Positions 1,483 to 64,000 of a DNA stretch of 64,000 bases are shown piece after piece (the stretch's first letter is position 1; each line of letters opens with the position of its first letter). The notes under the pieces were generated by a model. It was not told where the DNA came from and did not search any database. It worked only from the letters and a program-made list of their open reading frames with translations. The position numbers and the translations under genes were made by a program. Source of the stretch: Pedococcus aerophilus (lineage in GTDB: Bacteria > Actinomycetota > Actinomycetes > Actinomycetales > Dermatophilaceae); contig NZ_BAAARN010000001.1 of assembly GCF_039532215.1 (NCBI RefSeq), forward strand, positions 683,036 to 747,035. Reading direction: 5' to 3'.

Positions 1483-1565
1483 CCGTCAAGGATAGGTGCG
1501 CGCCGGACCGCTCCGTCCGCCAGCCCGCATCCCGGTCACCGCGCAACCCCGGTATGGCGCCTGCC

Positions 1566-2282
1566 TCAGGCCTCGGGGGTGTCCAGTCCCCTGGCGATGG
1601 CGAACCGGACCAGCTCGATGCGGTTGTGCATCTGCAGCTTGCCCAGGGTGTTCTGCACGTGGTTCTGCACGGTGCGGTGGGAGATGAACAGCTCCGACGC
1701 GATCTCCTTGTAGGACATGCCTGTCGCGACGAGCTTGAGCACCTCGGTCTCGCGCTCGGTGAGCTCGGGGATGGGGCGCGAGGGGTCGGCCTGCGGCTGG
1801 GTCGACAGCTTGCGGAACTCGCCCAGGACCAGCCCGGCCAGGCCCGGCGTGAACACCGCCTCGCCGCGGGCGGTGGCCTCGACCGCCGCCACGATCTCCT
1901 CGCGGGACGCGGACTTCACGAGGTACCCGGTCGCCCCGGCCTTGACCGCCTCGAGGACGTCCTGCTGCTCACCGGACGCCGACAGCACCAGCACCCGGGT
2001 CTCCAGCGAGCCGAGGGCGGCGCAGACCTCGTGCCCCCGCATGCCCGGCAGGTTGAGGTCGAGGACGAGCACGTCCGGGCGGGTCGCCCTGGTCCGGTTC
2101 ACCGCCGACGGGCCGTCGTCCGCCGTGGCCAGGACCGTCATGCCCGCCTCGGCGAGGTCGCGGGCGACCGCGTCCCGCCAGAGCGGGTGGTCGTCTGCGA
2201 CGACCACCCTGAGCGGCACGGACTCCTGCGCCGCGCCGTCCGCCCCCTGCGCCCCGACCTGCCCCTGCGACTGCACGTTCAT
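1566..2282 (-). CDS. NarL/FixJ-family response regulator (MacR-like)
   Basis: The 238-aa protein from ATG at 2282 has a receiver domain (about residues 23-145) with the acidic pair D30-D31, the phosphoacceptor D75 in LVLDLNLPG, and a C-terminal LuxR-type helix-turn-helix (about 170-215; LTERETEVLKLVATGMSYKEIA). It is a DNA-binding transcription factor activated by phosphorylation. Its ATG overlaps the stop of the upstream histidine kinase (ATGA), so the two are translationally coupled and surely partners. Reading further upstream in frame gives only Gly/Arg-rich antisense-like sequence, so 2282 is preferred. In Streptomyces the MacRS system sits near the same aroH and glucokinase neighbours (recalled synteny); targets here are unknown. 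Confidence 0.93.
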   Translation of the reverse strand: MNVQSQGQVGAQGADGAAQESVPLRVVVADDHPLWRDAVARDLAEAGMTVLATADDGPSAVNRTRATRPDVLVLDLNLPGMRGHEVCAALGSLETRVLVLSASGEQQDVLEAVKAGATGYLVKSASREEIVAAVEATARGEAVFTPGLAGLVLGEFRKLSTQPQADPSRPIPELTERETEVLKLVATGMSYKEIASELFISHRTVQNHVQNTLGKLQMHNRIELVRFAIARGLDTPEA

Positions 2283-3481
2283 GCCACCCCTCCACCGCGA
2301 GCGCCCGACCTGGGCGCCCGCATCGTCACCGTCGTCCCGGAACCCTCCCGGCCCGAGTACACCGCTTCTCCCCCGAGGTCCGACAAGCGCCCCCGGATGC
2401 TCGAGGAGGCACCCAACCGCCCGGCGGCGGCCGCCTCGTCGAGGCGCCCGGGCGCCATACCGGTGCCGTTGTCCCTCACCGTCAGGGCCACGACCTCCCC
2501 CTCGTCCTCGACCAGCACCCACGCCTCGGCGGCCTCCCCGGCGTGCTGGTGCACATTGTCCAGGGCCGCTCCCACCGCAGCCACGAGCTCGCCGGCGACA
2601 CGCGGTGGCACGAGCACGGGGTCGGCGGGGGCGACGAGGTGGACCCGTCCCTCGGCGAACCGTGCGAGCTGCTGGCGCAGGTCGACGTCGCCGTGCACCG
2701 CGGAGGCCGACTCGTCGGGTGTCGTGCCGCTCACCAGTGCCCTCAGCAGCCGCTCCTGGTCGGCCGCCATGCCACCGAGCTGCATGGCTTCACCGCCGAG
2801 CTGGGCGCCCCTCCGGTTGATGAACGCCAGGGTCTGCAGCACGCCGTCGTGGACCGTGCGGGCGAGTCGCTCGCGCTCCCGCACCTGCGCCTCGAGCGCG
2901 AGCGCCTCCCGCAGCTTGGTGTGCCCCTCGCGGGCGAGGTCGACGGCGTAGCCGATCAGCGTCCCGATGAGCAGCAGCAGGACGATGTTGTTGATCGTGT
3001 TGGGGGTGGCCCGCCCGACCTCGACGAGGTCGACGACGCCGATGAACACCGACGCGACGACCCCGCCCTTGCGGCCGAGCAGCACCGCCGCCGAGACCAC
3101 ACCTGCCGCGGGCCAGAACGTCGGCAGGGTCCGCGACCCGGCCTCGATGGCCTCGGCGGAGTCGACCAACCGCGTCGCGAGGATCGCTGCGGCGGCGAGC
3201 ACCAGCTCGACGACCACGAGAGACAGCCGGCGACGGCGGTAGAAGACGAGAAACACCGTCCACACGCCGAGGACGGCGAGGACGGCCCATCCCAGGGCCG
3301 GCCGGACGAGGTCCTGGGGGCGGTCCCACAGCGAGTACGCGGCATACGCCAACGCGATCGGGCGGAAGACGTCGATGCCCTTCCAGAAGGCCGACACGAC
3401 CTCGGGCTGGGAGTCGGGCACGGCCACGAGGCGCAGGCGCGTGCCGTGGCCACCCCGCGCTGCGCCGTCCCCCCGTGACAT
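2279..3481 (-). CDS. Membrane sensor histidine kinase (MacS-like, HisKA_3 type)
   Basis: A 400-aa protein with about five to six hydrophobic segments (roughly residues 40-180), including WAVLAVLGVWTVFLVF and NNIVLLLLIGTLIGYAV, followed by a short DHp helix. It carries the phosphoacceptor H211 in ERLARTVHDGVLQTL and a C-terminal HATPase_c domain with ALDNVHQHA (N box) and DNGTGM (G box). It autophosphorylates and passes phosphate to the coupled regulator. The start ATG at 3481 has an AGGGGGA Shine-Dalgarno 5 nt upstream; the longer in-frame reading overlaps the acyltransferase gene and has no better ribosome site. The gene lies 22 bp after the acyltransferase stop, so they may share a transcript. 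The signal sensed is unknown. Confidence 0.92.
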   Translation of the reverse strand: MSRGDGAARGGHGTRLRLVAVPDSQPEVVSAFWKGIDVFRPIALAYAAYSLWDRPQDLVRPALGWAVLAVLGVWTVFLVFYRRRRLSLVVVELVLAAAAILATRLVDSAEAIEAGSRTLPTFWPAAGVVSAAVLLGRKGGVVASVFIGVVDLVEVGRATPNTINNIVLLLLIGTLIGYAVDLAREGHTKLREALALEAQVRERERLARTVHDGVLQTLAFINRRGAQLGGEAMQLGGMAADQERLLRALVSGTTPDESASAVHGDVDLRQQLARFAEGRVHLVAPADPVLVPPRVAGELVAAVGAALDNVHQHAGEAAEAWVLVEDEGEVVALTVRDNGTGMAPGRLDEAAAAGRLGASSSIRGRLSDLGGEAVYSGREGSGTTVTMRAPRSGARGGGVA

Positions 3482-4524: not shown

Positions 4525-5280
4525 TTGTCCGTCCGACCCGGTGCAGAGCCCTACTCCCACGACGGCACCGGTGACCACGCCCGGACCGGCATCGTCCTCG
4601 CCCACGGCTTCACCGGCAGCCCTGCGAGCATGCGCCCGTGGGGCCAGTTCCTCGCCGAGGCCGGGTACACCGTGCGGGTCCCCCGTCTGCCCGGCCACGG
4701 CACGACGTGGCAGGAGATGAACCGCACCCGGTGGCAGGACTGGTATGCCGCCGTGGACAGCGCGTTCCGCGAGCTACACGAGCAGTGCGACCAGGTGTTC
4801 GTCGCAGGGCTCTCGATGGGAGGTGCCCTCGCGACCCGGCTCGCGCAGGAGCACGGTCCGAGGGTGAGGGGCCTGATGCTCGTCAACCCGGCGTACAAGG
4901 TGGACGACATCCGCCTGCGCGCCCTGCCGGTCCTGCAGACCGTCCTGCCCTCCTTGCCCGGCATCGGCAACGACATCAAGAAGGCTGGCGAGGACGAGGT
5001 CTGCTACGACCGCATCCCGCTCAAGGCGCTGTTCTCCCAGACCCGGCTGTGGGCCACGGTCGTCCGCGACCTGCCCGAGGTGACCCAGCCGGTCGTCCTG
5101 TGGCACAGCGTCGAGGACCACATCGTGCCCACCTCGAGCTCGGAGCTGTTCCTCTCCCGGGTCTCCAGCACCGACGTCACCGAGAACGTCCTGCACGACA
5201 GCTACCACGTGGCTACCCTCGACCACGACGCGCCACGTATCTTTGAGGAGTCGGTGCAGTTCATCGAGCGGCTCAGCTGA
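4525..5280 (+). CDS. Alpha/beta-hydrolase, Est30-like carboxylesterase
   Basis: A 251-aa cytosolic serine hydrolase with an oxyanion-hole segment LAHGFTGSP (about residues 25-33), the nucleophile S97 in GLSMGG, an acidic residue in SVEDHIVP and the catalytic His in DSYHVATLDHD near the C-terminus, so the triad is complete. Short lid and length resemble Geobacillus Est30 monoacylglycerol/carboxyl esterases. TTG at 4525 is preferred because AAGGAG lies 8 nt upstream and the product starts MSVRPGAEPY, the usual family start. It is divergent from the acyltransferase across 112 bp, which suggests shared promoter space and perhaps a common role in lipid turnover (inference). It does not contain a signal peptide. 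Confidence 0.9.
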   Translation: MSVRPGAEPYSHDGTGDHARTGIVLAHGFTGSPASMRPWGQFLAEAGYTVRVPRLPGHGTTWQEMNRTRWQDWYAAVDSAFRELHEQCDQVFVAGLSMGGALATRLAQEHGPRVRGLMLVNPAYKVDDIRLRALPVLQTVLPSLPGIGNDIKKAGEDEVCYDRIPLKALFSQTRLWATVVRDLPEVTQPVVLWHSVEDHIVPTSSSELFLSRVSSTDVTENVLHDSYHVATLDHDAPRIFEESVQFIERLS

Positions 5281-6463: not shown

Positions 6464-6483
6464 GCACCATCACGACGCGGGGG

Positions 6484-7397: not shown

Positions 7398-8123
7398 CTA
7401 GCTCGCGGCCTCGTCCGGACCGGTCTCGACCTCCGCGGACGGAACCGCCTGCGGGTCGAGGTCGACATCGACCCAGGTGGGTCGGTGGTCGCTGGCCGCG
7501 ACGAGGTCGGCGGCGTCGAGCGGCACCTCGCGGTGGGGCAGGACGGTGAGGTCGCGTGAGGCGAAGATGACGTCGAGCACCTTCCGCGGCGCCCTTGCGG
7601 GGTAGGTCGGCGTGGTGGGCGACACCAGGTGCAGCGGCGAGGCGAAGACCTGCCACGCGCGCCCCGTCTCCACCTCGTTGAGGTCGCCGGCGAGCAGCAC
7701 GGGCCCACCACCGGACACGCCTCGCAGGATCTGACCGGCGTGCCGCTCGCGCTCGGCGGCGTCGAGGCTGAGGTGGACCGAGGCCACCACGAGCGGTTCG
7801 TGGCCGGCGGGCGCGACGCGCGCGACGGCATACCCGCGGGTGCGCTGCAGGGTGGCCACGCGCAGGCGGTGGTGACGCGACTCCCGCACGTCGACGCGCA
7901 GCGAGGTGAGGATGGTGGTGCCGCCGCTGCCGCGGTGGCGACCCGACCAGTAGAGCCCGCACTCCGCAGCGAAGGCGGAGACCTGCCACGACCCGAACAG
8001 CCGGCGCGGCACCTCCTGGAGGCACAGCACATCCGGGTCGATCGCCCGGATGACCCGGGCCGCCGCATGCCGGTCCAGGGTGAGGTCCTTGAGGTTGTAG
8101 GACGCCACCCGCATGGTGCTCAT
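7398..8123 (-). CDS. Endonuclease/exonuclease/phosphatase (EEP) family protein
   Basis: A 241-aa metal-dependent phosphodiesterase-fold protein. It opens with MRVASYNLKDL, has the LCLQEVPRRL motif (catalytic Glu), VASVHLSLDAAER, LLAGDLNEVE (GDxN) and ends with SDHRPTWVDVDL (SDH), i.e. the full DNase I/exonuclease III catalytic set. The substrate may be DNA, a phosphorylated sugar or a lipid headgroup; the family does not say. There is no signal peptide. Its ATG (8123) overlaps the stop of the upstream ROK gene (ATGA), so it is the last member of a coupled series. MSTMRV offers two adjacent start codons (8123, 8114). Confidence 0.88.
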   Translation of the reverse strand: MSTMRVASYNLKDLTLDRHAAARVIRAIDPDVLCLQEVPRRLFGSWQVSAFAAECGLYWSGRHRGSGGTTILTSLRVDVRESRHHRLRVATLQRTRGYAVARVAPAGHEPLVVASVHLSLDAAERERHAGQILRGVSGGGPVLLAGDLNEVETGRAWQVFASPLHLVSPTTPTYPARAPRKVLDVIFASRDLTVLPHREVPLDAADLVAASDHRPTWVDVDLDPQAVPSAEVETGPDEAAS

Positions 8124-9085: not shown

Positions 9086-10038
9086 GAACCGATCCCCTCC
9101 GCCGCGAGCGCCGCGGCGCCGATGAGGCCTGCGTCGTTGCCGAGCGCCGCCGGGACGAACTCTGCCACCGGACGGTGCCCGCGGCCCGTCAGGTTCCTCG
9201 CGTATGCCGCGCGGGCGGGTTCGATGAGCAGGTCACCTGCCGCGACCACACCGCCGCCGATGACGATCAGCTCGGGGTCGAGGATCGCCGACACGGAGGC
9301 CGCACCCTCACCGAGCCAGCGCCCCAGGTCGGCGAGCAGCTCGACCGCGGCGGCGTCGCCGGACTGGGCGACGGTGGTGACCATGTGGCCGCGCAGGGCG
9401 GCGGGGTCGCCGCCGCACGCCTCGGACAGCGCAGCACCGTGCGGGGTGCCCGACGCGACGAGCTCCCGGGCCTCCCGCACCAGCGCGTTGCCCGAGGCGT
9501 AGACCTCCCAGCAGCCGCGGTTGCCGCAGCCGCAGCGGATGCCGTCGGGGACGACGCGCATGTGACCCAGCTCGCCGCCGACGCCGTAGGCGCCGCGAAG
9601 GAGCCGGGAGTCGACGACGACGCCGCCCCCGATGCCGGTGCCGACGGTGACGAGGACCATGTCGTCGGCCTCGTGCGCCGCGCCGTAGCGGAACTCGCCC
9701 CACGCCGCGGCGTTGGCGTCGTTCTCGATGATCACGGGGAAGTCGACCAGCGCCTCGAGCCGACGCTTGAGCGGCTCGTCCCGCCAGGCGAGGTTGGGTG
9801 CGAAGAGGACCGTGGAGCCGGTGCGGTCGACGAACCCGGCGCACGCCACGCCGACCGCCACGACGTCGGACCTCGGCTCGGCGAGCTCGTTGACCAGGTC
9901 GGCCACGTCGTGGGCGATCTGGTCGGGGTCCTGCGCCGGGGTGTCCCGACGGGTCCTGGCCAGGATCTCGCCGGTCGCCGAGACGACACCGGCGGCGATC
10001 TTCGTGCCGCCGATGTCCACGCCGATCGTCACGCTCAT
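9082..10038 (-). CDS. glkA: ROK-family glucokinase (GlkA-like)
   Basis: A 318-aa ROK kinase converting glucose to glucose 6-phosphate. It begins MSVTIGVDIGGTKIAAGVV, close to Streptomyces GlkA (from memory, SCO2126), and contains VIIENDANAAAWGEF with the catalytic Asp, VTVGTGIGGGVV, and the Cys-rich zinc site GELGHMRV...CGCGNRGCWEVYASG. In Streptomyces GlkA also mediates carbon catabolite control. Here it is coupled at both ends (ATGA) to the second ROK gene downstream and the zinc-ribbon gene upstream. I consider this copy the likelier housekeeping glucokinase of the two. Confidence 0.9.
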   Translation of the reverse strand: MSVTIGVDIGGTKIAAGVVSATGEILARTRRDTPAQDPDQIAHDVADLVNELAEPRSDVVAVGVACAGFVDRTGSTVLFAPNLAWRDEPLKRRLEALVDFPVIIENDANAAAWGEFRYGAAHEADDMVLVTVGTGIGGGVVVDSRLLRGAYGVGGELGHMRVVPDGIRCGCGNRGCWEVYASGNALVREARELVASGTPHGAALSEACGGDPAALRGHMVTTVAQSGDAAAVELLADLGRWLGEGAASVSAILDPELIVIGGGVVAAGDLLIEPARAAYARNLTGRGHRPVAEFVPAALGNDAGLIGAAALAAEGIGS

Positions 10039-10616
10039 CGGGTTGCGCTCCCTTGGTCCTCGTCGTCGATGGTGATGTCCTGCACCCGCGGTCCGCGGGT
10101 CCTGGGGTCGTGCCGTGCCGTGGGCCCGCCGGGGGTTCCCGGAGGGGTCCCGGAGGCGGAGCGCGTCTGCGTCGCCACGTCACGCAGGGCCGTGGCCAGC
10201 GCACCGGCCAGGTCTGCGAGCCGGTCGACCGTCTCGGGTCGCACGGACCGGAGCAGCCCGATCCCCTGGCACAACGGGCACCACTGGCAGGTGACGGCCT
10301 GGCCGGTGCCGTTGGCGGCACCACACTGGTCGCAGTGCCCGGGCCCGTGCGACCGCGTCTCACCCGGCGGCACGGTGCCCGACTCGCCGGACGCCTCCTG
10401 GGCATCCGGGACGTCCGGTGCGTCCGGGACGTCCGGTGCGTCCGGGACGTCGGGGACGTCCGGGTCGGAGGCGTGGGCATGAGCCGGTGCGGCGCCATAC
10501 CCGCTCGTGCTCACCCACCCCCCGAGGGCGTCGAGCAGCCGGGCAGCCTCCTCGGCCACCGAGCCCACCGGCTTCACCGGGTCCACCGGGGGCTGGGGCT
10601 CGTCCTGGTCAGCCAC
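10035..10616 (-). CDS. Zinc-ribbon protein with a DVPDAP repeat linker
   Basis: Function unknown. The 193-aa product, read from GTG at 10616 (overlapping the ArsA stop as GTGGCTGA), starts with a Pro-rich acidic segment and a short helix (VAEEAARLLDALGGW). A low-complexity stretch of Asp-Val-Pro-Asp and Asp-Ala-Pro-Asp units (about residues 55-75) comes from an 18-bp DNA repeat. A zinc-ribbon-like region follows (CDQCGAANG, CQWCPLCQG), then a helical segment (TVDRLADLAGALATALRDVA) and a polar tail. It sits between the ArsA ATPase and the glucokinases, coupled to both, so it probably works with one of them, for example as an adaptor (inference). Confidence 0.75.
   Translation of the reverse strand: MADQDEPQPPVDPVKPVGSVAEEAARLLDALGGWVSTSGYGAAPAHAHASDPDVPDVPDAPDVPDAPDVPDAQEASGESGTVPPGETRSHGPGHCDQCGAANGTGQAVTCQWCPLCQGIGLLRSVRPETVDRLADLAGALATALRDVATQTRSASGTPPGTPGGPTARHDPRTRGPRVQDITIDDEDQGSATR
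10405..10458. repeat. 18-bp in-frame tandem repeat inside the zinc-ribbon gene
   Basis: The unit TCCGGGACGTCCGGTGCG occurs at 10405-10422 and 10423-10440, with a degenerate third copy at 10441-10458. Read on the minus strand it encodes the hexapeptide-period acidic/proline linker. The period of 18 keeps the frame, so copy number could vary without breaking the gene. Confidence 0.85.
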
Positions 10617-16782: not shown

Positions 16783-16948
16783 GTCCAGGCTCCTGTGGGA
16801 TCGGTGTCAGGTCGGTGCCGCCGACCGGTGTCGGCGGCACTGCTCCATTCCTAACCGGCAGGAGGTCCGGTGCCCGAAATGTCCGGGTCAAGGCTTCGCC
16901 AGAGCCCGACAGATCGACGTATGCCGCGTGTGCCGCAGGTCTGGAAGG

Positions 16949-19079: not shown

Positions 19080-19264
19080 CGCGATCACCCCTTCCTCGTC
19101 GGCAGCTCGGTGGACCACTTCCACCTGACGACGACGCTACGAGACACCACCGACAACGCCCTCCGACGCCATGCGCAGCACCAGTCTCCGACGGGTGCGG
19201 GAGCCGACCGCCGCGCGCCTGCGTGGGGCTGTCACACCACCGGCATACCGTCAGGGACATGCAG

Positions 19265-32115: not shown

Positions 32116-32152
32116 GGTATGCCGCCTGCTCCCCCGGAGCAGGCGGCATACC
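32116..32152. terminator. 17-bp perfect hairpin after qcrB
   Basis: GGTATGCCGCCTGCTCC (32116-32132) pairs without mismatch to 32136-32152 around a CCC loop. It lies 35 bp after the qcrB stop and should end the ctaE-qcrCAB transcript. Each arm contains one copy of the window-wide 9-mer GTATGCCGC in opposite orientation. Confidence 0.85.
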
Positions 32153-38676: not shown

Positions 38677-38972
38677 GCAGCGGCGAGGACGTCGACCCCA
38701 CCAGGGGTGGTGGGCACGCAGGCCCCGAGGTGGTCGTCGTCGACGCCCGCGGCCTGCGCTGCCCGCTGCCGGTGATCCGGCTCGCCCAGCAGGTCCGTGA
38801 CCTCGCGCCCGGGACGCTGGTCGAGGTGTGGGCCACGGACCCGGCAGCAGCCGCGGACGTCCCGGCCTGGTGCCGGATGCGGGGCCAGGAGCTCGTCTCC
38901 GCCGAGGAGCGGGAGGTGGGCGAGGGAGGTGCGCACGCGGCATACCTCGTCCGGGTGGTCGCGCCGCGCTGA
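38673..38972 (+). CDS. TusA-family sulfur carrier protein
   Basis: A 99-aa protein with VVDARGLRCPLPVIRLAQQV (the TusA CPxP motif with the sulfur-carrying Cys), ATDPAAAADVPAWCRMRGQEL and a final beta strand. An extra N-terminal acidic stretch of about 20 residues precedes the domain. TusA proteins accept persulfide sulfur from cysteine desulfurases and pass it on for tRNA thiolation, molybdenum cofactor or other uses. Its GTG overlaps the stop of the desulfurase-like gene, a direct operon link. The second Cys (AWCRM) is also family-typical. Confidence 0.9.
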   Translation: MSSGEDVDPTRGGGHAGPEVVVVDARGLRCPLPVIRLAQQVRDLAPGTLVEVWATDPAAAADVPAWCRMRGQELVSAEEREVGEGGAHAAYLVRVVAPR

Positions 38973-46859: not shown

Positions 46860-46926
46860 ACCCTAGGCCAGCCACGTCCCCGGGTGGGTGGCACGCGGTG
46901 CCCGCGCGGCGGCATACGATCGGCGC
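46860..46926. promoter_or_regulatory. Divergent leaderless promoters of the MDMPI gene (minus) and nadA (plus)
   Basis: On the minus strand TAGGGT (46865 to 46860) ends 6 nt before ATG 46853. On the plus strand TACGAT (46915-46920) ends 6 nt before GTG 46927. The nadA -10 box overlaps a copy of the recurring 9-mer (GCGGCATAC, 46909-46917). Confidence 0.65.
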
Positions 46927-51396: not shown

Positions 51397-52683
51397 TCAG
51401 GCGCTCGGGATCTCCTCGACCCGGAGCGTGAAGTCCCGGCGGCGCAGCCTGTCCACGAGCACGTCCCCGAGGGCGGTCGCAGGCGTGAGCACCCCTGCGG
51501 CAGGCGGCAGCCGGTCGCCGTCCAGGGCCAGCGCGAGAGCCGCCTCCCCGAGCATGACCGTGGTCGCGGCATACCCCGGATCCCCTTGTGCCGTCACGGT
51601 CGCGAGGTAACGGCGGCCGGTCTCCGTCGTGGTCCGGACCTTCATCGAGAACCAGCCGGTGCGGCGGGTCTTCTCGCTCGGGCCCTCGCCCGGCGAGGGC
51701 GCGATCCGGTCGAAGACGGGACGGGTGCGGTCGTCACCCATCGCCTTCATCGCCAGGCCGAGGCCCACCGTGAACGCGGTGGCCCGACCACGTGCGACAG
51801 GTCCGCGCCCGTAGGCCGACAGCTCGCGGTAACGGAACCGGCGACCGTAGGCGTGGTCGCGAAGAGCGTTGCTGCGCCTGACGATCCGCGTGTTGAAGCT
51901 GGCCATGACGAACGGCCCGACCCAGTCGCCGGTGTCGGCGTCGCGGAAGACCGCCATGGGGTCTCGCTCCTTGCCCAGGTCGGGCTCGGCGTTGCGGTCG
52001 GGACTCAGGCCGTAGGGGTCGAAGAGGGTCTTCACGGCACGACGGTCGGTCGACACGGCGTCGAGCTGGGCGCGGGAGGAGTCGACCGTGCCGCCGCTGA
52101 CGCCGCCCTTCGCCCTGGCGTGCAACGTGGTGTCGAGCAGTCCCCCGGCAGCATCGTGCTGCGCCTGCTGGTGCAGCAGGTGGACGGCGAGGTCGGACGG
52201 CACGGAGTCGTAGCCGCAGGCGGTGACGATGCGGGCACCGCTGGCCTTCGCCAGCGCGTCGCACTCGTCGATCGCCTTGCGCACGAACAAGATCTCGCCA
52301 GTCAGGTCGGCGTAGTGCGTGCCGGCCTCGGCGCAGGCCCGCGCGAGCGGCAGGCCGTAGCGCAGGTACGGGCCGACCGTGGTGGCGACGACGGTGGTGG
52401 AGGCGGCGAGGGACCGCAGCGCGACCTCGTCGACGGCGTCCGCCACGACCAGCGGCCAGTCGCGCGCTGCGCGCGGCAGGCCCCGGCGGACCTCCTCGAG
52501 CTTGGTGCGGGAGCGTCCTGCGAGGGCGATACGGGTGCCTGACGGGGCGTTGCGGGCGAGGTACTCCGCGAGGAGTCTGCCGACGAAGCCGGTGGCGCCG
52601 TAGACGACCACGTCGTGGGTGCGCCGCTCGGTGTCCCCGGCGTCTCGGACTTCGTGCCGCGCGTCGTGTCCTGCGTCGGTCAT
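51397..52683 (-). CDS. Saccharopine dehydrogenase-like / trans-acting enoyl reductase family protein
   Basis: A 428-aa Rossmann protein: VVVYGATGFVGRLLAEYLA (nucleotide-binding GxTGxxG), VVATTVGPYLRYGLPLARACAEAGTHYADLTGE and IVTACGYDSVPSDLAVHLL are signatures of the family that includes mycobacterial trans-acting enoyl reductases (Rv2449c/Rv2953 type), which act on lipid or polyketide intermediates. No polyketide genes are nearby, so substrate is unknown. ATG 52683 overlaps the GST-type gene's stop (ATGA), giving a two-gene operon with it. Confidence 0.87.
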   Translation of the reverse strand: MTDAGHDARHEVRDAGDTERRTHDVVVYGATGFVGRLLAEYLARNAPSGTRIALAGRSRTKLEEVRRGLPRAARDWPLVVADAVDEVALRSLAASTTVVATTVGPYLRYGLPLARACAEAGTHYADLTGEILFVRKAIDECDALAKASGARIVTACGYDSVPSDLAVHLLHQQAQHDAAGGLLDTTLHARAKGGVSGGTVDSSRAQLDAVSTDRRAVKTLFDPYGLSPDRNAEPDLGKERDPMAVFRDADTGDWVGPFVMASFNTRIVRRSNALRDHAYGRRFRYRELSAYGRGPVARGRATAFTVGLGLAMKAMGDDRTRPVFDRIAPSPGEGPSEKTRRTGWFSMKVRTTTETGRRYLATVTAQGDPGYAATTVMLGEAALALALDGDRLPPAAGVLTPATALGDVLVDRLRRRDFTLRVEEIPSA

Positions 52684-53759: not shown

Positions 53760-55124
53760 TCAGCGCGGCAGGGCGCCGAGGCGGGCCAGCAGGATCGCCT
53801 CCGCGACGCAGACCTTCTCGAACTCGCCGAGGTGCAGCGACTCGTTGGCACCGTGCGCCCGGGTGTCCGGGTCCTCGACGCCCGTGACGAGGATGGCCGC
53901 CTGCGGGAACTTCTCCGCGAACGCCGCGACGAAGGGGATCGAGCCGCCCACGCCGATGTCGACCGGCTCCACGCCCCACGCGTCGGTGAACGCGGCCCGC
54001 GTCTGGTCGTAGACCGGCCCGTTCGCGTCAGCGGCGAAGCCGGAGCCCTGGTCGTCGAGGTGGACCTCGACCCTGGCGCCCCACGGGATGTTGGCCTCGA
54101 CGTGGCGCTGCACGGCGGCATACGCGTCCAGGGGGTCCTCGTCCGGGGCGAGGCGGATGGACACCTTGGCGCTCGCGGTGGGCACGAGGGTGTTGGAGGA
54201 CTTCGCCACCGAGGGGGCGTCGATGCCGATGACGGTCGCCGTGGGCTTGGCCCAGATGCGGTCGAGCAGCGAGCCGGTGCCGATGACGTCGACGCCGTCG
54301 AGCAGGCCGGACTCCTCGCGCAGGCGCGCCTCGTCGAAGTCGAGGTTGCTGGCCGTGCCGGAGCGCAGCCCGGCGATGGCGACGTCGCCGGCGTCGTCGT
54401 GCAGCGTCGCGAGCAGGCGCACCAGGGCGGTGATCGCGTCGGGGACCGCCCCACCGAACATGCCCGAGTGGATGCCGTGGTCGAGGGTGGTGACGGTGAC
54501 GACGACGCGGATCAGCCCGCGCAGCGTCGTGGTGAGGGCGGGCTCACCGATGGCCCAGTTGGTCGAGTCGGCCAGGACGATGGCGTCGGCCCGCAGCTTC
54601 TCGCCGTGCCGCTCGAGGATGGTGGGCAGCGAGTCGGAGCCGATCTCCTCCTCGCCCTCGACGAAGACGGTGACCCCGACCGGCAACCGGCCATGGTGGG
54701 CCCGAAGAGCCGCGAGGTGGGCCATGATCCCGGCCTTGTCGTCGGCGGCGCCGCGGCCGTAGAGCCGCCCGTCGCGCTCGGTCGGCTCGAACGGTGCGCT
54801 GTCCCAGTCCTTGTCATCACCGGGCGGCTGCACGTCGTGGTGCGCGTAGAGCATCACGGTCGGCGCGCCCTCGGGCCCGTCGAGGTGCCCGATCACCGCG
54901 GGGCGACCGCCCTCGCGGACGATCTCGACCTCGAGGCCCTCGGCGCGCAGCAGCTCTGCGGTCGCCTCGGCGCTGGCCTCGACATGGGCCTGGTCGAAGG
55001 CGTCGAGGCTGACGCTCGGGATGCGGGTGAGCGCCTCGAGGTCGGCGCGCAGGCCGGGCATGAGGTCGGCCACCGTGGCCTTGAGGGCGGAAACCTGGTC
55101 GGTGCTCAGAACGTCGTCGGTCAC
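53760..55124 (-). CDS. M20-family dipeptidase
   Basis: A 454-aa zinc peptidase: MLYAHHDVQPPGDDKDW (first zinc His), GRGAADDKAGIMAHLAA (bridging Asp), VEGEEEIGSDSLP (catalytic and ligand Glu), a lid domain with HSGMFGGAVPDA and a terminal RAHGANESLHLGEF with the last His. It is the dipeptidase/Cys-Gly-type subfamily, perhaps acting on peptide debris or mycothiol-derived Cys conjugates. GTG 55124 is preferred because TAGGCT (55132-55137) ends 7 nt upstream, implying a leaderless transcript; the frame extends to 55187 but would overlap that promoter. Confidence 0.92.
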   Translation of the reverse strand: MTDDVLSTDQVSALKATVADLMPGLRADLEALTRIPSVSLDAFDQAHVEASAEATAELLRAEGLEVEIVREGGRPAVIGHLDGPEGAPTVMLYAHHDVQPPGDDKDWDSAPFEPTERDGRLYGRGAADDKAGIMAHLAALRAHHGRLPVGVTVFVEGEEEIGSDSLPTILERHGEKLRADAIVLADSTNWAIGEPALTTTLRGLIRVVVTVTTLDHGIHSGMFGGAVPDAITALVRLLATLHDDAGDVAIAGLRSGTASNLDFDEARLREESGLLDGVDVIGTGSLLDRIWAKPTATVIGIDAPSVAKSSNTLVPTASAKVSIRLAPDEDPLDAYAAVQRHVEANIPWGARVEVHLDDQGSGFAADANGPVYDQTRAAFTDAWGVEPVDIGVGGSIPFVAAFAEKFPQAAILVTGVEDPDTRAHGANESLHLGEFEKVCVAEAILLARLGALPR

Positions 55125-55131: not shown

Positions 55132-55192
55132 AGCCTAACGGGACCGCCCGCGCGGTTGCGATTCCGGGGAACGGCACTCCACGGCATACAGT
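55132..55192. promoter_or_regulatory. Divergent leaderless promoters of the M20 (minus) and DUF3043 (plus) genes
   Basis: Minus strand: TAGGCT (55137 to 55132) with 7 nt to GTG 55124. Plus strand: TACAGT (55187-55192) with 6 nt to GTG 55199. The plus -10 box overlaps one recurring 9-mer copy (ACGGCATAC, 55181-55189). Only 74 bp separate the two genes. Confidence 0.65.
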
Positions 55193-56105: not shown

Positions 56106-57698
56106 GTGATCGTCCTCGAGGGTGTGTGCCTGGCGTATGGCGCGCAGTCGGCGCTGCGGGACGTCACGGTCCGCGTCCCCGAGGGTGAGCTCGTGCTCGT
56201 CGTCGGCCCGACCGGGTCGGGCAAGACCACGCTGCTGCGGGCCCTCGCCGACTCCGGGCACGCCCGGTCGGTCGTCTCTGCGGGACGGCTCGACATCGAC
56301 GGGACCGACCCGCGCACCGCTGAGCCGGCGACGCTGTCGGCCCTCGTCGGGTGGGTGGCGCAGGACCCGGCCACCGGGTTCGGCGCGCCGACGGTCGAGG
56401 CCGAGGTGGCCCGCCACGTGCGGGCGCACGACCACGACCTGCACGGCGGGCAGCGTCGTGTCGAGGAGACCCTCGACCTGCTCGGGCTGGCCCTGCTCCG
56501 GGACCGCCCGCTCACCGACCTCTCCGGCGGCGAGCAGCAACGCGTGGCCATCGCTGCGGCGCTCGTCACCGGCCCTCGTGTGCTGGTCCTGGACGAGCCG
56601 ACCTCGGCCCTGGACCCGGTCGCCGCCGAGGAGGTCCTGGCCACGCTGCACCGGCTCGTCCACGACGTCGGCGTCACGGTCCTGGTCTCCGAGCACCGGC
56701 TCGAACGCGTCGTCCACCACGCCGACTCCGTCCTGCTGGTCGGCGACGGGGTGGTGAGCGCGCTGCTCGGGACCGCGGAGGCGATGGCGCACTCGCAGGT
56801 CCACCCGCCGCTCGTCGACCTCGGTCGGGCCCTGGGCTGGGACCCGCTGCCCCTGTCCGTGCGCGACGCCCGCCGAGCGGCGCGTGGCCTGCAGGACACC
56901 CTCGACGGCCCGGCGACGACTGCGGCGAGAACGACGACGGAGCCTGCCGACCGCGGCGCCCCGGTGGTCCGCACCCGCGGGCTGGGCGTCGTCCGGGGAG
57001 ACACCGTCGCCCTCCGGGACGTCGGTCTCGCCCTGGCTCCCGGGGAGGTCGTCGCCCTCATGGGACGCAACGGGGCCGGCAAGTCCACCCTGCTGCACGC
57101 CCTGGCCGGTGACCTGCCACCGACCGCGGGGCGGGTCCACCGGGACGGCAGCACCGTGGTTGCCCTGTCGACCCAGGACCCGGGCGCGACGCTGGGTGCC
57201 GGACCCGACAGCTCGGTGGCCGAGGTCCTGCGCACCGCGGACCGGGCGCACGACCTCGACCCCGGGACCGCCGCGGTGGTCTTCGAGCGGCTGGCGCCCG
57301 GCGTGGACGCGGGCCGTGCGGTCGGTGCGCTCTCCCAGGGCCAGCGGATGGCCCTCGCCCTGGCGACCGTCCTCGCCCGGCGAGCGCCGCTCACCCTGCT
57401 CGACGAGCCCACCCGAGGGCTCGACTACGGGGCCAAGGCGCGCCTCGTCACCGTCCTTCGCGAGCTGGCACGGGACGGCGGCGCGGTCCTCGTCGCGACC
57501 CACGACGTCGAGCTCGCTGCCGAGGTCGCCGGTCGGGTGGTCGTGCTCGCCGAGGGCGAGGTCGTCGCCGACGGACCAGCGGTGACGGTGCTGCTCGACT
57601 CCCCCGCCTTCGCCCCACAGGTCGCCAAGGTGGTGCGCCCGGCGCCGTACCTGACCGTTGCCGCCCTCGTCGCCGGCCTGCCCGGGCGAGAGCGCTAG
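56106..57698 (+). CDS. ECF-type ABC transporter, fused double ATPase
   Basis: A 530-aa protein with two nucleotide-binding domains. NBD1: GPTGSGKTTLL (Walker A, about 34-44), LSGGEQQRVAIA, LVLDEPTSALDP. NBD2: GRNGAGKSTLL (about 318-328), LSQGQRMALALA, TLLDEPTRGLDYG. Both have signature and Walker B with Glu, so both should hydrolyse ATP; Q of the second signature replaces G. Fused duplicates of this kind energise energy-coupling-factor vitamin or metal importers with a membrane EcfT and a substrate S protein. Neither partner is in the window, so it is an orphan here or part of a distant system. Confidence 0.9.
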   Translation: MIVLEGVCLAYGAQSALRDVTVRVPEGELVLVVGPTGSGKTTLLRALADSGHARSVVSAGRLDIDGTDPRTAEPATLSALVGWVAQDPATGFGAPTVEAEVARHVRAHDHDLHGGQRRVEETLDLLGLALLRDRPLTDLSGGEQQRVAIAAALVTGPRVLVLDEPTSALDPVAAEEVLATLHRLVHDVGVTVLVSEHRLERVVHHADSVLLVGDGVVSALLGTAEAMAHSQVHPPLVDLGRALGWDPLPLSVRDARRAARGLQDTLDGPATTAARTTTEPADRGAPVVRTRGLGVVRGDTVALRDVGLALAPGEVVALMGRNGAGKSTLLHALAGDLPPTAGRVHRDGSTVVALSTQDPGATLGAGPDSSVAEVLRTADRAHDLDPGTAAVVFERLAPGVDAGRAVGALSQGQRMALALATVLARRAPLTLLDEPTRGLDYGAKARLVTVLRELARDGGAVLVATHDVELAAEVAGRVVVLAEGEVVADGPAVTVLLDSPAFAPQVAKVVRPAPYLTVAALVAGLPGRER

Positions 57699-58640: not shown

Positions 58641-59099
58641 TCAGGCGCGACGCACCAGCGGCTCGAGGACCACGTCGGTCGTCAGCGAGTTGGCGATGTA
58701 GCACTGGTCGTGCGCCTCGTGCAGGAGCCGCACGACGTCCTCGTCCGACACGGTGCCCGTCACCGTGACCACCGGGCGGAGCACGATCCGCGTGATCCTC
58801 ACCGGGGTCACGTCCTGCGGCATCTCGCCCGTCACGTCGTCCGCGTAGGCCACCACGTCGACCTCTGCCCGCGCCGCTACCGCGAGGAACGACAGCAGCT
58901 GGCAGGACGACGCGGCGAGGACGAGCAGCTGCTCGGGGTTCGGCAGGTCGGCGTCGCCGCGGAAGTGCGGGTCCGCCGACAGGTCGAGGCCGTCCGTCGC
59001 CGGCGGCAGGAACGCCGAGTGCGCCCGCGGGTAGTCGCGGTAGCCGACACCGGTGGACCCGTCCCACCGGACCTGCGCGCGGTACTCGTGCGGCGCCAT
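58641..59099 (-). CDS. OsmC/Ohr-family peroxide-resistance protein
   Basis: A 152-aa dimeric thiol peroxidase-like protein with the two active Cys: LAASSCQLLSFLAVA (peroxidatic) and HDQCYIANSL (resolving). The arrangement with ADLPNPEQLLVLAASSC matches OsmC-like, rather than Ohr, members. It protects against organic hydroperoxides. Its ATG lies inside a GTATGGCGC copy (59093-59101 on the other strand), i.e. the recurring 9-mer contains the start codon. GGGGAG is a good Shine-Dalgarno. 28 bp after gcvT on the same strand. Confidence 0.93.
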   Translation of the reverse strand: MAPHEYRAQVRWDGSTGVGYRDYPRAHSAFLPPATDGLDLSADPHFRGDADLPNPEQLLVLAASSCQLLSFLAVAARAEVDVVAYADDVTGEMPQDVTPVRITRIVLRPVVTVTGTVSDEDVVRLLHEAHDQCYIANSLTTDVVLEPLVRRA

Positions 59100-59127
59100 A
59101 CCTGCTCCCCTCGCCGCCGTCTCCAGA

Positions 59128-60234
59128 TCAGCCCTCGCGGACGTCCACGGTGACGAACGGGGGCTTGACGACGGTGGCGGTGACCTCGCGGCCGCGGACG
59201 TCGATGACGACCTCGGCGCCCTCGGCGACGGACGGAGCGAGCAGCGCGAGCGCGATGCCGTTCTTCAGGGTCGGGCTGAACGTCCCCGAGGTCACCTCGC
59301 CGACGACCGCACCGTCCGCCTTCACGGCGCACCCCGCACGGGGTATGCCGCGGCCGGTGGCAAGCAGGCCCCACGCCACCCGCTCGGGGCCTGCGGCCTT
59401 CTCGGCGACGAGGGCGTCCTTGCCCCAGAAGGCGTCCTTCTTCCAGCCGACCGCCCAGCCGACGCGGGCCTGGACCGGCGTGATCTCGGTGGACAGCTCG
59501 TGGCCGTGCAGCGCGTAGCCCATCTCGGTGCGCAGGGTGTCGCGGGCGCCGAGCCCGCAGGGCAGGCCGTCGTAGGGGGCTGCTGCCTCGGTCAGGGCGT
59601 CCCAGAGCTGGGCGGCGACGTCCCACGCGGGGACGAGCTCGTAGCCGCGCTCGCCGGTGTAGCCGGTGCGGCACACGATGACGGGCAGCCCGTTCCAGTC
59701 GGTCTCGACGAACGACATGTACTCGTGCCCGGTGGGCAGGCCGAGGGCGTCGAGCACCTCGTCGGACTTCGTCCCCTGGACGGCGATGACGCCGTAGGAC
59801 TCGTGCAGGTCCTCGACGACGATGCCCTCGGGCGCGGCGGCGGCGAGGCGACGGACCACCTCGGCGGTGTTGGCGGCGTTGGGGATGAGGAAGACGTCCT
59901 CGTCGGAGCGCAGGTAGGCGATGAGGTCGTCGACGACACCACCGTTCTCGTCGCAGCACAGGGTGTACTGCGCCTTGCCCTCGTGGATCCGGCCGAGGTC
60001 GTTGGCGAGGCAGGAGTTCACGAACTCACGCGCCCCCGGTCCCGACACCCGTGCCTTGCCCAGGTGCGAGACGTCGAAGATCCCGACGGACGAACGGACG
60101 GCCGTGTGCTCGCGGACGACTCCGCCACCGGGGTACTCGATCGGCATCTCCCAGCCACCGAAGTCGGCCATCTTGGCGCCCAGCGCCACGTGCCGGTCGT
60201 GCAGGGGGGAGGTCTTCAGGGCTGCGTCGCTCAT
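59128..60234 (-). CDS. gcvT: Glycine cleavage system aminomethyltransferase (T protein)
   Basis: A 368-aa enzyme transferring the methylamine carbon from the lipoylated H protein to tetrahydrofolate. It starts [29 protein letters not shown] and has [12 protein letters not shown]-type and [11 protein letters not shown] motifs, and the catalytic-site Asp region, all conserved. gcvH and gcvP are not nearby. TAGCGT ends 7 nt before ATG 60234, giving a leaderless start with no room for a glycine riboswitch. It sits beside OsmC and the leucyl aminopeptidase gene, as in M. tuberculosis Rv2211c-Rv2213. Confidence 0.96.
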
Positions 60235-61876: not shown

Positions 61877-61915
61877 CGGCCACGCGCCATACGCGGCACC
61901 GCCGCTGCTCCACGC

Positions 61916-61981: not shown

Positions 61982-62188
61982 TCAGCCGCCGCTCTTGCGA
62001 CGGAACATCTGCTGCGTCGCGCTCGTCGCCGCACCCTGCGCGTGGTCGACCTTGCCGTGCTCGCTGTCGTCGGAGACGTCACGCCCGGCGTGGGACTGCT
62101 TCTTGTCGAGCGCTTCGCGGAACTTGCGCTTCATCTCCTCGCTGGGTCCCGTGCTCCCCTGGGACTTCGCACCGTCGGACTTGGCCAT
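61982..62188 (-). CDS. DUF5302 domain small protein
   Basis: A 68-aa hydrophilic protein: MAKSDGAKSQGSTGPSEEMKRKFREALDKKQ followed by a His/Gly-rich middle and the C-terminal QMFRRKSGG. The EEMKRKFREALDKK helix and the FRRKSGG end define the actinobacterial DUF5302 family, likely disordered and of unknown function. AGGAGGG lies 5 nt before ATG 62188, which fixes the start over a longer frame. Confidence 0.85.
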   Translation of the reverse strand: MAKSDGAKSQGSTGPSEEMKRKFREALDKKQSHAGRDVSDDSEHGKVDHAQGAATSATQQMFRRKSGG

Positions 62189-62331
62189 CGTGCCCTCCTG
62201 CTGCTCGTGCGGCGCGGGCCGCGTGCGGACCCGCCGTGGGTCAACCTTCGCATCCCGGCTCGGCAGGGCACCACCGCATATCCCGTCCGGCACCGTTCAC
62301 CACGCCCGATCACGCTGCGGCGTATGGCGCT

Positions 62332-62667
62332 TCAGCCCTTCTTGCGCTGCCGGGAGTTCCACTCGCGCATGCGTCCGGGGTACCCCGTCTGGAGGACGTC
62401 GTAGACCGGGACACCGAGGCTGCCTGCCAGCTCGAAGGCCGCCTGTCGCGACCCGGCCGCGCGACGCGTCCACTCACCGTCGTGGGCGATGAGGATGACC
62501 GTCGTGGCGGTGACGTTGGTGGGTGGCTCGACGTAGGCCTCGACCCCGCGCCGGCTCTCGGCGAACTCGGCGAGGTGCTTGCGCACCGCCTGCTGGTCCA
62601 CCGCCATGTTGGGCCCGTCGGAGGGACCACGTCCGGAGCCCTTGCGTCCCCGCTTCCACCACGCCAT
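62332..62667 (-). CDS. Conserved small protein, basic N-terminus
   Basis: A 111-aa protein: a basic WWKRGRKGSGRG start, a helix (DQQAVRKHLAEFAESRRG), strands with VEAYVEPPTNVTATTVILIAHDGEWTRRAAG and VPVYDVLQTGYPGRMREWNSRQRKKG. It resembles small actinobacterial proteins with a Rossmann-like core, but I cannot name a function. TATCGT (62674-62679, minus) ends 6 nt before ATG 62667. One recurring 9-mer copy (62322-62330) lies just after its stop. A 178-bp region upstream precedes lpdA. Confidence 0.78.
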   Translation of the reverse strand: MAWWKRGRKGSGRGPSDGPNMAVDQQAVRKHLAEFAESRRGVEAYVEPPTNVTATTVILIAHDGEWTRRAAGSRQAAFELAGSLGVPVYDVLQTGYPGRMREWNSRQRKKG

Positions 62668-62845
62668 GCGACAACGATACGGGGACAGGGCTGCCCGCCG
62701 TCGGCCATTGCGCCCGCGTGGACCTGCTTGCACCCCGGGCCTCAAACAGTGACAAGATGCACTGTGTCGATTCCGGGGTGGTCACGACCTGACTGCCTCA
62801 CGGACGACTGAGACCGTCCAGTGCCCACCACGCAAGGGAGCGAGC

Positions 62846-64000
62846 ATGTCGGCTGACGCCGAGACCACCTTCGATGTCGTCGTCCTGGGTGGAGGAAGTG
62901 GCGGCTACGCCTGCGCGTTCCGTGCCGCAGAGCTCGGGCTCAGCGTCGCGCTCGTCGAGAAGAACAAGCTCGGTGGCACCTGCCTGCACGTCGGGTGCAT
63001 CCCGACCAAGGCCCTCCTGCACGCCGCCGAGGTCGCCGACACCGCCCGCGAGGGTGCGCAGTTCGGCGTGAAGACGACCTTCGAGTCGGTCGACATGTCC
63101 GGCGTCAACGCCTACAAGGACGGTGTGATCGCCCGTCTCTACAAGGGGCTCCAGGGTCTGGCCAAGGCCCACAAGATCGAGCTCGTCGAGGGTGCGGGAC
63201 GCCTCGTCGACCGCTCCACCGTCGAGGTCGACGGACGCCGGGTCACCGGCCGCAACGTCGTCCTCGCCACCGGTTCCTACGCGAAGTCGCTGCCCGGCCT
63301 GGAGATCGGTGGTCGCATCATGACCAGCGAGCAGGCGCTGGCGCTCGACTTCGTCCCCCCGCGCGTCGTCGTCCTCGGTGGCGGTGTCATCGGGGTCGAG
63401 TTCGCCTCGGTGTTCCGTTCCTTCGGGTCCGAGGTGACCATCGTCGAGGCGCTCCCCCGGCTCGTGGCCGCGGAGGACGAGGCGGTCTCCAAGACGCTCG
63501 AGCGCTCGTTCCGCAAGCGCAAGATCGCGTTCAGGACGGGCGTGAAGTTCGCCGGTGCCACCCAGTCCGGTGACACCGTGACGGTGTCCCTCGAGGACGG
63601 CGGCACCATCGAGGCCGACCTGCTGCTCGTCGCCGTCGGCCGCGGTCCGGTCACCGAGGGCCTCGGGTATGCCGAGGCAGGCGTCACCCTGGACCGTGGA
63701 TTCGTCACGACCGACGAGCGACTGCGCACCGGAGTCGAGGGTGTCTACGCCGTCGGCGACATCGTGCCCGGGCTCCAGCTCGCCCACCGCGGGTTCGCCC
63801 AGGGCATCTTCGTCGCCGAGGAGATTGCCGGGCTCGCGCCCGCCGTGATCGACGAGATGGGCATCCCGCGCGTCACCTACTGCGACCCCGAGATCGCGTC
63901 GGTCGGTCTCACCGAGAAGCAGGCCACCGAGAAGTACGGCGAGGTCGAGACCTATGAGTACAACCTCGGGGGCAACGGCAAGTCCCAGATCCTCCAGACT
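62846..64000 (+). CDS. lpdA: Dihydrolipoyl dehydrogenase (E3), N-terminal 385 residues
   Basis: The gene runs off the window after residue 385 of a protein usually about 460 aa long. FDVVVLGGGSGGYACAFRAAELG (FAD site), GGTCLHVGCIPTKALLH (redox disulfide CxxxxC), ATGSYAKSLPG, VVLGGGVIGVEFASVFRSFGSEVTIVEA (NAD site) and GVYAVGDIVPGLQLAHRG are diagnostic. The enzyme reoxidises lipoyl groups of pyruvate/2-oxoglutarate dehydrogenase and the glycine cleavage H protein. AAGGGAG lies 6 nt before ATG 62846. The recalled M. tuberculosis neighbour is dlaT (Rv2215), so a dehydrogenase complex gene may follow beyond the window. Confidence 0.96.
   Translation, partial: MSADAETTFDVVVLGGGSGGYACAFRAAELGLSVALVEKNKLGGTCLHVGCIPTKALLHAAEVADTAREGAQFGVKTTFESVDMSGVNAYKDGVIARLYKGLQGLAKAHKIELVEGAGRLVDRSTVEVDGRRVTGRNVVLATGSYAKSLPGLEIGGRIMTSEQALALDFVPPRVVVLGGGVIGVEFASVFRSFGSEVTIVEALPRLVAAEDEAVSKTLERSFRKRKIAFRTGVKFAGATQSGDTVTVSLEDGGTIEADLLLVAVGRGPVTEGLGYAEAGVTLDRGFVTTDERLRTGVEGVYAVGDIVPGLQLAHRGFAQGIFVAEEIAGLAPAVIDEMGIPRVTYCDPEIASVGLTEKQATEKYGEVETYEYNLGGNGKSQILQT

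Follow-up and report, generated by a model that had tools for sequence, protein, structure and literature searches.

To our knowledge, uptake words have been described only from the Neisseriaceae and Pasteurellaceae, and neither uptake nor transformation has been reported for a member of the family considered here; Chi, KOPS and HIP1 are other short words in genome-wide excess. As the sources drawn on here describe it, the Neisseriaceae DUS is a 10–12-bp non-palindromic word with up to thousands of copies and eight dialects that follow phylogeny; its inverted pairs are associated with terminators, intragenic copies are common, and some members of the family carry no DUS at all (PMC3630211, PMC2346458). 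The Pasteurellaceae USS, in the account used here, has a 9-bp core and comes as two different words, one for each of two subclades within the family; competence genes are conserved among the members, with defects in some (PMC1626085). Micrococcus luteus is described as possessing comEA, comEC and tad genes while lacking com-pseudopilus genes (PMC4322843, PMC6370729), and as transforming with this kind of gene set (PMC4322843). Our literature search found no uptake word for Actinomycetota, and in a search on the 9-mers none of the 20 titles listed out of 110 papers concerned a genome-wide word.

The actinobacterial word GTATGSCGC, judged by analogy, most resembles the own-kind DNA recognition tags of some other bacteria. 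Like the DUS as described, it is a non-palindromic, multi-copy word with dialects, inverted pairs, intragenic copies and family members that lack it, and its inverted pairs form hairpins in the manner reported for DUS dialects (PMC3630211). Like the USS, it has a 9-bp core, one of two words in a family with conserved competence genes. The two USS words share ANNNGCGGT, however (PMC1626085), whereas the two actinobacterial words, GTATGSCGC and CGAAGGGGG, have no evident common core. With the Flp/Tad competence of M. luteus it shares comEA, comEC and tad genes and the lack of com-pseudopilus genes, but the portions of those accounts that we draw on mention no uptake word (PMC4322843, PMC6370729). 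Unlike Chi, KOPS and HIP1, it combines a lack of replichore polarity with a non-palindromic sequence and a presence that RecC does not match.

A recurrent word in the window and the genome

In the window, by which we mean the whole 64-kb stretch analysed, GTATGSC occurs 31 times (16 on the + and 15 on the − strand; mean 4.0 and largest 10 in 100 dinucleotide shuffles), and the full GTATGSCGC occurs 24 times (12 + and 12 −; dinucleotide shuffles 0.6, largest 3). The recurrence on both strands, the balanced orientation and all 31 positions reported by the sequence-only reading were borne out, minus-strand positions being the left ends of the 9-mers. GTATGGCGC lies at 1552..1560 (+), 2452..2460 (−), 10492..10500 (−), 15319..15327 (−), 20583..20591 (+), 34944..34952 (−), 56135..56143 (+), 59093..59101 (−), 61884..61892 (−) and 62322..62330 (+); among aligned congeners, 7 of 9 have GTATGCCG at the 2452 site and 7 of 8 have GTATGCCGC at the 10492 site. 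GTATGCCGC itself lies at 3339..3347 (−), 4743..4751 (+), 9202..9210 (+), 15049..15057 (+), 16919..16927 (+), 25246..25254 (+), 37755..37763 (+), 38937..38945 (−), 46909..46917 (−), 51566..51574 (−), 54115..54123 (−) and 59343..59351 (+). GTATGCCGT is found at 7825..7833 (−), where 9 of 10 aligned congeners have the same first 8 bases, and at 13842..13850 (+), 44005..44013 (+) and 55181..55189 (−), with GTATGCCGG at 19240..19248 (−) and GTATGCCGA at 63667..63675 (+). CG continues the word in 30 of 31 copies, the sole exception being the degenerate GTATGCCAC at 28642..28650 (+), just as claimed, and near copies GTATGCAGC were confirmed at 25220..25228 (−) and 26309..26317 (−). The + strand of the window has 28 TAT and 37 ATA; the assertion that about half of these triplets belong to the word stood, but the loci outside it number 34 rather than the ~28 counted by hand.

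The whole genome, which is Pedococcus-like and belongs to the Intrasporangiaceae/Dermatophilaceae, holds 1239 copies of GTATGSCGC (612 + 627) and 33 of the reversed word, an extreme excess of the kind seen for the 9–12-bp DUS/USS words. As in those systems, the strands are equal and show no replication-arm bias. The comparison with a third-order Markov model that the sequence-only reading had proposed gave 146 observed and 6.2 expected in 464 kb; orders 4, 5 and 6 expect 16, 36 and 66, higher orders increasingly containing the word itself. The core is sharp: leaving out GTATGGCGC, 17 of 26 one-base neighbours of GTATGCCGC have at most 4 copies, compared with 93 for GTATGCCGC itself, and the commonest of the others are those with T at position 9, in 29 copies, A at position 7, in 16, and G at position 2 or 4, in 16 each.

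Copies outside called genes account for 78 of 350 in 847 kb, 86.5% of which is covered by called genes. Both this enrichment between genes and the occurrence of inverted pairs as hairpins are found in DUS/USS. Neighbours less than 60 bp apart comprise 9 convergent, 2 divergent and no same-orientation pairs, and 10 of these 11 agree at position 6. In the window, the copies at 32117 (+) and 32143 (−) form such a pair (32117..32151, +), a hairpin with a 17-bp stem downstream of a qcrB-like cytochrome b gene; its predicted fold of −37.2 kcal/mol (z −8.8) and its position suggest a terminator-like element. Of the 11 genomes in the genus, 10 have similar hairpin matches elsewhere, with none among the matches listed for the other, G009. 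A hairpin role for more distant opposite pairs was rejected: neighbours 60–1000 bp apart match at position 6 in 44 of 77 cases, with 43.6 expected.

Dialects, losses and a second word

The word is patchily distributed in its family (of 186 genomes, 101 are high, 9 intermediate and 76 low), and none of 229 sampled genomes from other families of the same order is high. All 19 genomes of genera g62 and g66 hold only 5–25 copies of it but carry CGAAGGGGG in 797–1939 copies with balanced strands; the other 167 of the 186 family genomes have at most 80 copies of CGAAGGGGG. In a ComEC tree, g62 and g66 form one clade (support 99) beside a genome with the first word (support 84). Dialects are also evident: in genome G017, 98 of 133 copies carry C at −1, six Knoellia loci have T at +9 in 47 of 71, and G occupies position 6 in 111 of 350 own-genome copies versus 3 of 280 in G002. 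Dialects or alternative words among relatives are likewise a feature of DUS/USS. A comparison of sites across 10 congeners gave an equivocal result, with 71 of 158 conserved (0.45), compared with 0.32 for composition-matched 8-mers but 0.47 for 8-mers containing GTA/TAC.

Samples of 80 kb from four low genomes (G127, G180, G126 and G131) and of 40 kb from two others (G011 and G016) yielded no third word. Three words enriched in low-word genomes, GTACGGCG (G127), GTACGCCG (G131) and CGATGCGG (G126), showed no clear same-orientation exclusion. Gaps in the word pointed to one acquired-looking island with 15 copies in 80 kb (0.19 versus 0.41 per kb). It is uneven, however, and was not kept as evidence that foreign DNA lacks the word: its conjugation genes sit in bins of normal density, the 20 kb with relaxase and TrbL genes holding 8 copies.

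A putative uptake word, possibly read strand by strand

Same-orientation copies avoid each other within ~1 kb (13 pairs versus 68 expected), whereas opposite-orientation pairs in the same range, of which we saw 79, show no avoidance. This exclusion is strong here but weak in prophage-associated contigs with the Neisseria-type DUS (186 pairs versus 203). For the Haemophilus-type USS, in contrast to the orientation-specific pattern found here, neighbours in such contigs are excluded whatever their orientation (70 same and 65 opposite, with 120 expected of each), and same-orientation exclusion as such is not seen (70 pairs versus 67.5 in permutations). We had not met same-orientation exclusion as a kind of evidence before. 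With it, sequence alone shows if a word spread through a genome acts on each strand separately, and other words could be examined in the same way.

Among the four roles first proposed for the word (nucleoid, segregation, methylation or uptake), uptake fits best. We put at roughly 0.6 the probability that GTATGSCG(C) serves as the DNA-uptake sequence in a lineage of naturally transformable actinobacteria that uses a Tad/Flp pilus with ComEA and ComEC and reads the word strand by strand; uptake as a process, the existence of a receptor and the strand-by-strand mechanism are what we infer from the patterns above. A putative receptor belonging to the competence machinery (a pilus of Tad/Flp type, ComEA and ComEC) would bind the word, so that kin DNA would be preferentially imported and then recombined, and copies would consequently build up by biased replacement over evolutionary time. 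Copies in genes would arise through rare codons, and those between genes partly as inverted pairs doubling as terminator-like hairpins. If the word works in one orientation, a second same-orientation copy would give no gain, and each strand of a ~1-kb stretch would therefore need its own copy. Drift in receptor specificity could produce the dialects, and a single switch could have led to the unrelated CGAAGGGGG. More tentatively, we propose sequence-specific uptake in Actinomycetota in which sites avoid themselves per strand over a ~1-kb range, the unit of selection is the imported single strand or one direction from the site, and the receptor switched to an unrelated word in one clade.

The competence genes themselves do not discriminate between genomes, since nearly all members have them with or without the word. 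As in DUS/USS systems, the machinery is encoded in the genome, which has a comEA–comEC pair and TadE, but low-word genomes carry the same genes: of the 186 family genomes, 180 have ComEC and 181 have TadE, and tblastn shows ComEA in all 42 low-word and all 23 high-word loci examined. A comEC split between two frames occurs once among the 42 low loci, in none of the 23 high ones and once among 18 named loci that bear the word. No tracking of the word by competence genes is seen across these loci, and their loss as the cause of word loss is not supported. PilM, the type IVa pilus marker, has no match in 179 of 186 genomes, including this one, and is present in 7, so no minor pilin of the ComP kind is to be expected; a type IVa pilus as carrier with a ComP-type receptor is not supported, and the system differs in this respect, as in its phylum and its word, from the Neisseriaceae DUS. 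No receptor for the word was found. Should GTATGSCGC prove to be an uptake word, a large family of soil bacteria could be regarded as naturally transformable, addition of the word to DNA would offer a handle for their genetics, and two independent words, dialects and several losses would be at hand for tests of word evolution and receptor identity.

Other readings of the word

A role in chromosome organisation or epigenetics seems unlikely, whether the word is bound by a nucleoid protein peculiar to the family or is, in the manner of HIP1, what an orphan methyltransferase targets. Such a role would suit a genome-wide, strand-balanced, family-restricted and patchy word, and replacement of the word could mirror replacement of a DNA-binding protein. 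HIP1 is palindromic, however, and this word is not; the reading accounts less naturally for the strand-specific exclusion, for inverted pairs that resemble terminators and for orthologous sites that differ by dialect, a sharply defined non-palindromic word with dialects and wholesale replacement is less natural for methylation or nucleoid binding, and we know of no candidate protein.

We consider it rather improbable that the word is a Chi-like recombination hotspot, which at broken ends would regulate RecBCD or AdnAB as the helicase-nuclease; such a hotspot would be polar, each orientation guarding against entry from one side, and would make a second nearby copy redundant. This reading would account for strand-autonomous exclusion over ~1 kb and for the genome-wide spread. 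Escherichia coli Chi is skewed to the leading strand, whereas this word shows no such bias, with 72+/70− on one side of a dif-like site and 106+/102− on the other (847 kb). RecC, the Chi-reading subunit, is missing from 10 of the 11 genomes in the genus, this one included, all of which bear the word; G002 and every listed genome of g52 and g12, which have the same word, do carry it. Across the family, RecC matches occur in 42 of the 101 high genomes and in 45 of the 76 low ones and do not track the word. The RecBCD–Chi form is rejected on these two grounds, and loss within genera and replacement by CGAAGGGGG would be odd for a core repair signal.

A KOPS-like segregation signal read by FtsK, a role that the sequence-only reading had also raised, has almost no probability left: the word is short, frequent and non-palindromic, as such a signal would be, but the polar GGGGGAGT flips at the dif-like site in the same 847 kb, from 39+/0− before it to 1+/39− after, whereas the word stays balanced on both arms and is thus neither KOPS nor a strand-biased Chi.

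We dismiss the view that the word is a side effect of preferences in codons, dipeptides or composition, even though coding copies mainly read xxG-TAT-GSC-GC (Tyr-Gly/Ala-Ala) and Tyr-Ala-Ala is over-used (86 versus 47), because called genes hold 112 copies versus 5.2 (maximum 9) in 60 codon-aware synonymous shuffles and non-coding DNA holds 33 versus 0.9 (maximum 3) in 30 shuffles. The word is therefore under selection as DNA, as the sequence-only reading had held, and the Tyr-Ala preference that it offered as a counter-explanation failed: Tyr is encoded by TAT in 78 of 101 xxG-Tyr-[Gly/Ala]-Ala contexts but in only 77 of 2,508 cases elsewhere.

An over-represented word with a sharp core

The word GTATGSCGC, which the sequence-only reading had placed about 31 times in the window and attributed to selection on the DNA, is far more frequent than expected by chance. 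The shorter form GTATGSC occurs 31 times in the window against 4.0 expected, bearing out that count, and the full word occurs 24 times against 0.6 expected. Counted over the whole Pedococcus aerophilus genome (10 contigs, 4.02 Mb in total), as the same reading had proposed, GTATGSCGC is found 1239 times and the word read backwards 33 times. The window lies at G000:C1:683036-747035 of that genome. In 464 kb, called genes hold 112 copies against 5.2 after synonymous codon shuffling (maximum 9 in 60 shuffles; gene calls from a simple, purpose-made caller trained on the same sequence), and the non-coding part holds 33 against 0.9 under a second-order Markov model (maximum 3 in 30 runs). Tyrosine is encoded by TAT at 78 of 101 positions where the word can form in the main frame, and at 77 of 2,508 elsewhere. 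The excess over codon shuffles, the non-coding excess and the concentration of TAT therefore establish that the word is under selection or drive at the DNA level, as had been claimed.

The core is sharp. There are 93 perfect copies of GTATGCCGC, substitutions at positions 1, 5 and 8 occur only 0–2 times, and GC-richer one-base neighbors at positions 2–4 reach 6–16 copies. Position 6 is C in 93 copies and G in 53; at position 9, C is commonest, followed by T (29) and A (13). The 350 GTATGSCG sites in 847 kb of this genome are divided between strands (178+, 172−), with 183 sense, 89 antisense and 78 outside called genes, which make up 86.5% of the sequence. Adjacent copies less than 60 bp apart are convergent in nine cases, divergent in two and never of the same orientation. 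For the inverted pair at 32117–32151 of the window, folding predicts a hairpin with a stem of 17 bp, an energy of −37.2 kcal/mol and a z-score of −8.8. Ten of the genus's 11 genomes have short matches to this hairpin (query 1787–1842) listed at positions other than the orthologous one; G009 has none listed. Conservation among congeners, assessable at 19 of the 30 GTATGSCG sites in the window, is equivocal, with 71 of 158 cells identical (0.45); the comparators gave 0.32 for composition-matched 8-mers, 8/36 for GTACGSCG, 0.47 for 8-mers with GTA or TAC and 16/27 for other GTATG.

Exclusion between copies of the same orientation

Among pairs 60–1000 bp apart in the same 847 kb, 13 share an orientation (68 expected) and 79 are opposite (68 expected). 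When orientations were shuffled over fixed positions in 5000 trials, same-orientation pairs averaged 46 with a minimum of 30, so that 13 was never reached. Adjacent pairs are mostly opposite both inside one gene (35 opposite, 8 same) and otherwise placed (42 opposite, 2 same); as controls, 200 random frequent 8-mers of this genome have 45% of their adjacent pairs in opposite orientation, and the frequent word CTCGGCGA shows no same-orientation deficit (147, mean 141). The effect is fading at 1–1.5 kb (21, mean 31; 36/5000 shuffles as low) and gone at 1.5–3 kb (92, mean 97). Same-orientation pairs at 60–1000 bp are also depleted in the congener G002 (66, mean 106; 0/5000 as low), in G017 from another genus (57, mean 72; 26/5000) and in G095 (8, mean 14; 70/5000), and orientation shuffles give no clear sign of exclusion past 1 kb in these three genomes. 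Eighteen named family loci, which share regions and are not independent, show 21 such pairs (mean 47; 0/5000), no exclusion at 1–1.5 kb and some at 1.5–3 kb (65, mean 80; 61/5000). On these counts the two orientations behave as two independent, self-avoiding sets. Each strand, or each direction leading away from a site, may therefore depend on a copy of its own.

Known uptake words may be spaced differently. Haemophilus-type USS in 107 IMG/VR stretches are depleted in both orientations alike (70 same, 65 opposite, 120 expected each; shuffled mean for same 67.5), and Neisseria-type DUS in 120 stretches are mildly depleted (186 same, 221 opposite, 256 expected each; shuffled mean 203, 224/5000 as low), a weak comparison because the stretches are viral-collection contigs chosen for an inverted pair.

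Distribution, dialects and a second word

Pedococcus belongs to the Intrasporangiaceae in the NCBI taxonomy, a family that we take to be the Dermatophilaceae of GTDB. The 186 family genomes, all retained, comprise 101 high genomes from 30 genera, 9 intermediate and 76 low, where 'high' denotes at least 200 copies and three times the reversed word; these cut-offs are our own, and a few low genomes, such as three of genus g68, are borderline. In the order outside the family, none of 229 genomes is high (the clearest excess is 70 against 24, in G045), and in a phylum sample of 396 genomes only the family's own members are. GTATGSCG is present at 0.3–0.9 per kb in every one of the 18 named loci found via ComEC (L082–L099), which come from Pedococcus, Phycicoccus, Knoellia, Janibacter sp. 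HTCC2649, Leekyejoonella and MAGs. Copy number drops clearly inside two genera, to 17 in G065 against 387–884 in its four g50 congeners and to 9 in G127 against 528 and 1865 in its g26 congeners.

The word also has dialects. C precedes it in 98 of 133 cases in G017, T occupies position 9 in 47 of 71 across six Knoellia loci, and position 6 is G in 111 of 350 copies in P. aerophilus against 3 of 280 in G002. At two orthologous sites P. aerophilus has GTATGGCG where most aligned congeners (7 of 9 at one, 7 of 8 at the other) carry GTATGCCG.

A de novo search of the low genome G098 yielded a second word, CGAAGGGGG, with 37 copies in 80 kb against 2.2 expected. It is strand-balanced and present in 797–1860 copies in all 16 genomes of genus g62 and 1317–1939 in all three of g66, and in at most 80 copies in each of the remaining 167 of the 186 genomes. 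Genomes of both genera have only 5–25 GTATGSCGC. In one 80-kb G098 sample its core is sharp, with convergent hairpin-like pairs (three for CGAAGGGG), and same-orientation pairs of CGAAGGGG fall below expectation (6, mean 10.3; 91/5000 as low). In a phylogeny built from ComEC of 64 members of the family, with G127 left out, the genera with the second word form one clade (support 99) adjoining a genome with the first (support 84), and presence of the first word requires nine changes, at least six forced by well-supported branches. Pasteurellaceae, with their Hin and Apl types, offer a parallel for such a switch within one family (PMC1626085).

A separate pattern was seen in G131 (C1:200001-280000, L072–L075), where short words such as TCTCGATAC are clustered (14 in 80 kb against 0.2–0.3 expected), with inverted copies close by; these are probably a dispersed repeat family.

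DNA uptake as the probable role, and its alternatives

To our knowledge, the combination of extreme excess, a sharp non-palindromic core, strand balance, inverted terminator-like pairs, dialects, loss inside genera and replacement by a different word is known solely for uptake sequences (PMC3630211, PMC1626085, PMC2346458). We favor reading GTATGSCGC as an uptake sequence, with a probability of roughly 0.6. Literature searches covered the word itself, uptake sequences of Actinobacteria or Gram-positives, and genome words of the genera concerned; among the matches listed there was no description, most subscription journals and bioRxiv being outside the scope of the search.

Competence genes are present. 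In P. aerophilus, comEA (SLBB and HHH domains) adjoins comEC (competence and metallo-beta-lactamase domains), whose product is 81% identical over the best segment to ComEC of Phycicoccus sp. Root101 and 73–78% identical to those of Phycicoccus sp. Soil748, Pedococcus bigeumensis, Phycicoccus sp. Soil802 and Pedococcus cremeus, values that point to a Pedococcus-like member of the Intrasporangiaceae. Across the 186 family genomes, ComEC is found in 180, TadE in 181 and PilM in 7. The family set of comEA, comEC and tad matches the Micrococcus luteus transformation set, which has these genes without com-pilus genes (PMC4322843, PMC6370729). The comEC regions examined come from 42 of 76 low genomes, five of which carry the second word, and from 23 of the 101 high genomes, and ComEA is present in every one; the absence of any low–high difference in ComEA/ComEC frequency among these loci is against a simple story. 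comEC is in two frames in one of the 42 low loci (G127), none of the 23 high loci and one of the 18 named word-bearing loci (Leekyejoonella, L097). The genome of G127, whose split-frame locus is C1:100001-115000 (L077), consists of one contig and has the word at background level, and both its sampled congeners are high.

The rival that we retain is a Chi-like polar signal for AdnAB, which would yield the same exclusion between same-orientation copies; its leading-strand-biased form is disfavored by the balance of GTATGSCG on the two sides of a dif-like site (72+/70− and 106+/102−). This balance excludes a KOPS role, and the segregation function that the sequence-only reading had considered finds no support there. 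RecC matches occur in 90 of 186 family genomes (85 above the curated cut-off), among them 42 of the 101 high genomes and 45 of the 76 low ones; within the genus, 10 of 11 genomes, including P. aerophilus, have none, and G002 has one.

The same scan (G000:C1:1-847035; L001–L020, L101–L120 and the window) also returned GGGGGAGT, which is almost perfectly polar and switches sign at the dif-like site near C1:319975 (L016), called with what we take to be the dif pattern: 39+/0− up to the site and 1+/39− past it. GGGGGAGT is likely the FtsK-orienting, KOPS-like word of this lineage.

A GC-poor stretch chosen by its long gaps between copies, C1:490–570 kb (L105–L109), holds 15 copies in 80 kb (0.19 against 0.41 per kb overall), and supports little because its 20 kb with conjugation genes (TrwC relaxase and TrbL) have 8 copies, a normal density. 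C1:490000-570000 looks like an integrated conjugative element: besides the TrwC relaxase and TrbL genes it carries one for a P-type ATPase. Word density is patchy along its length.
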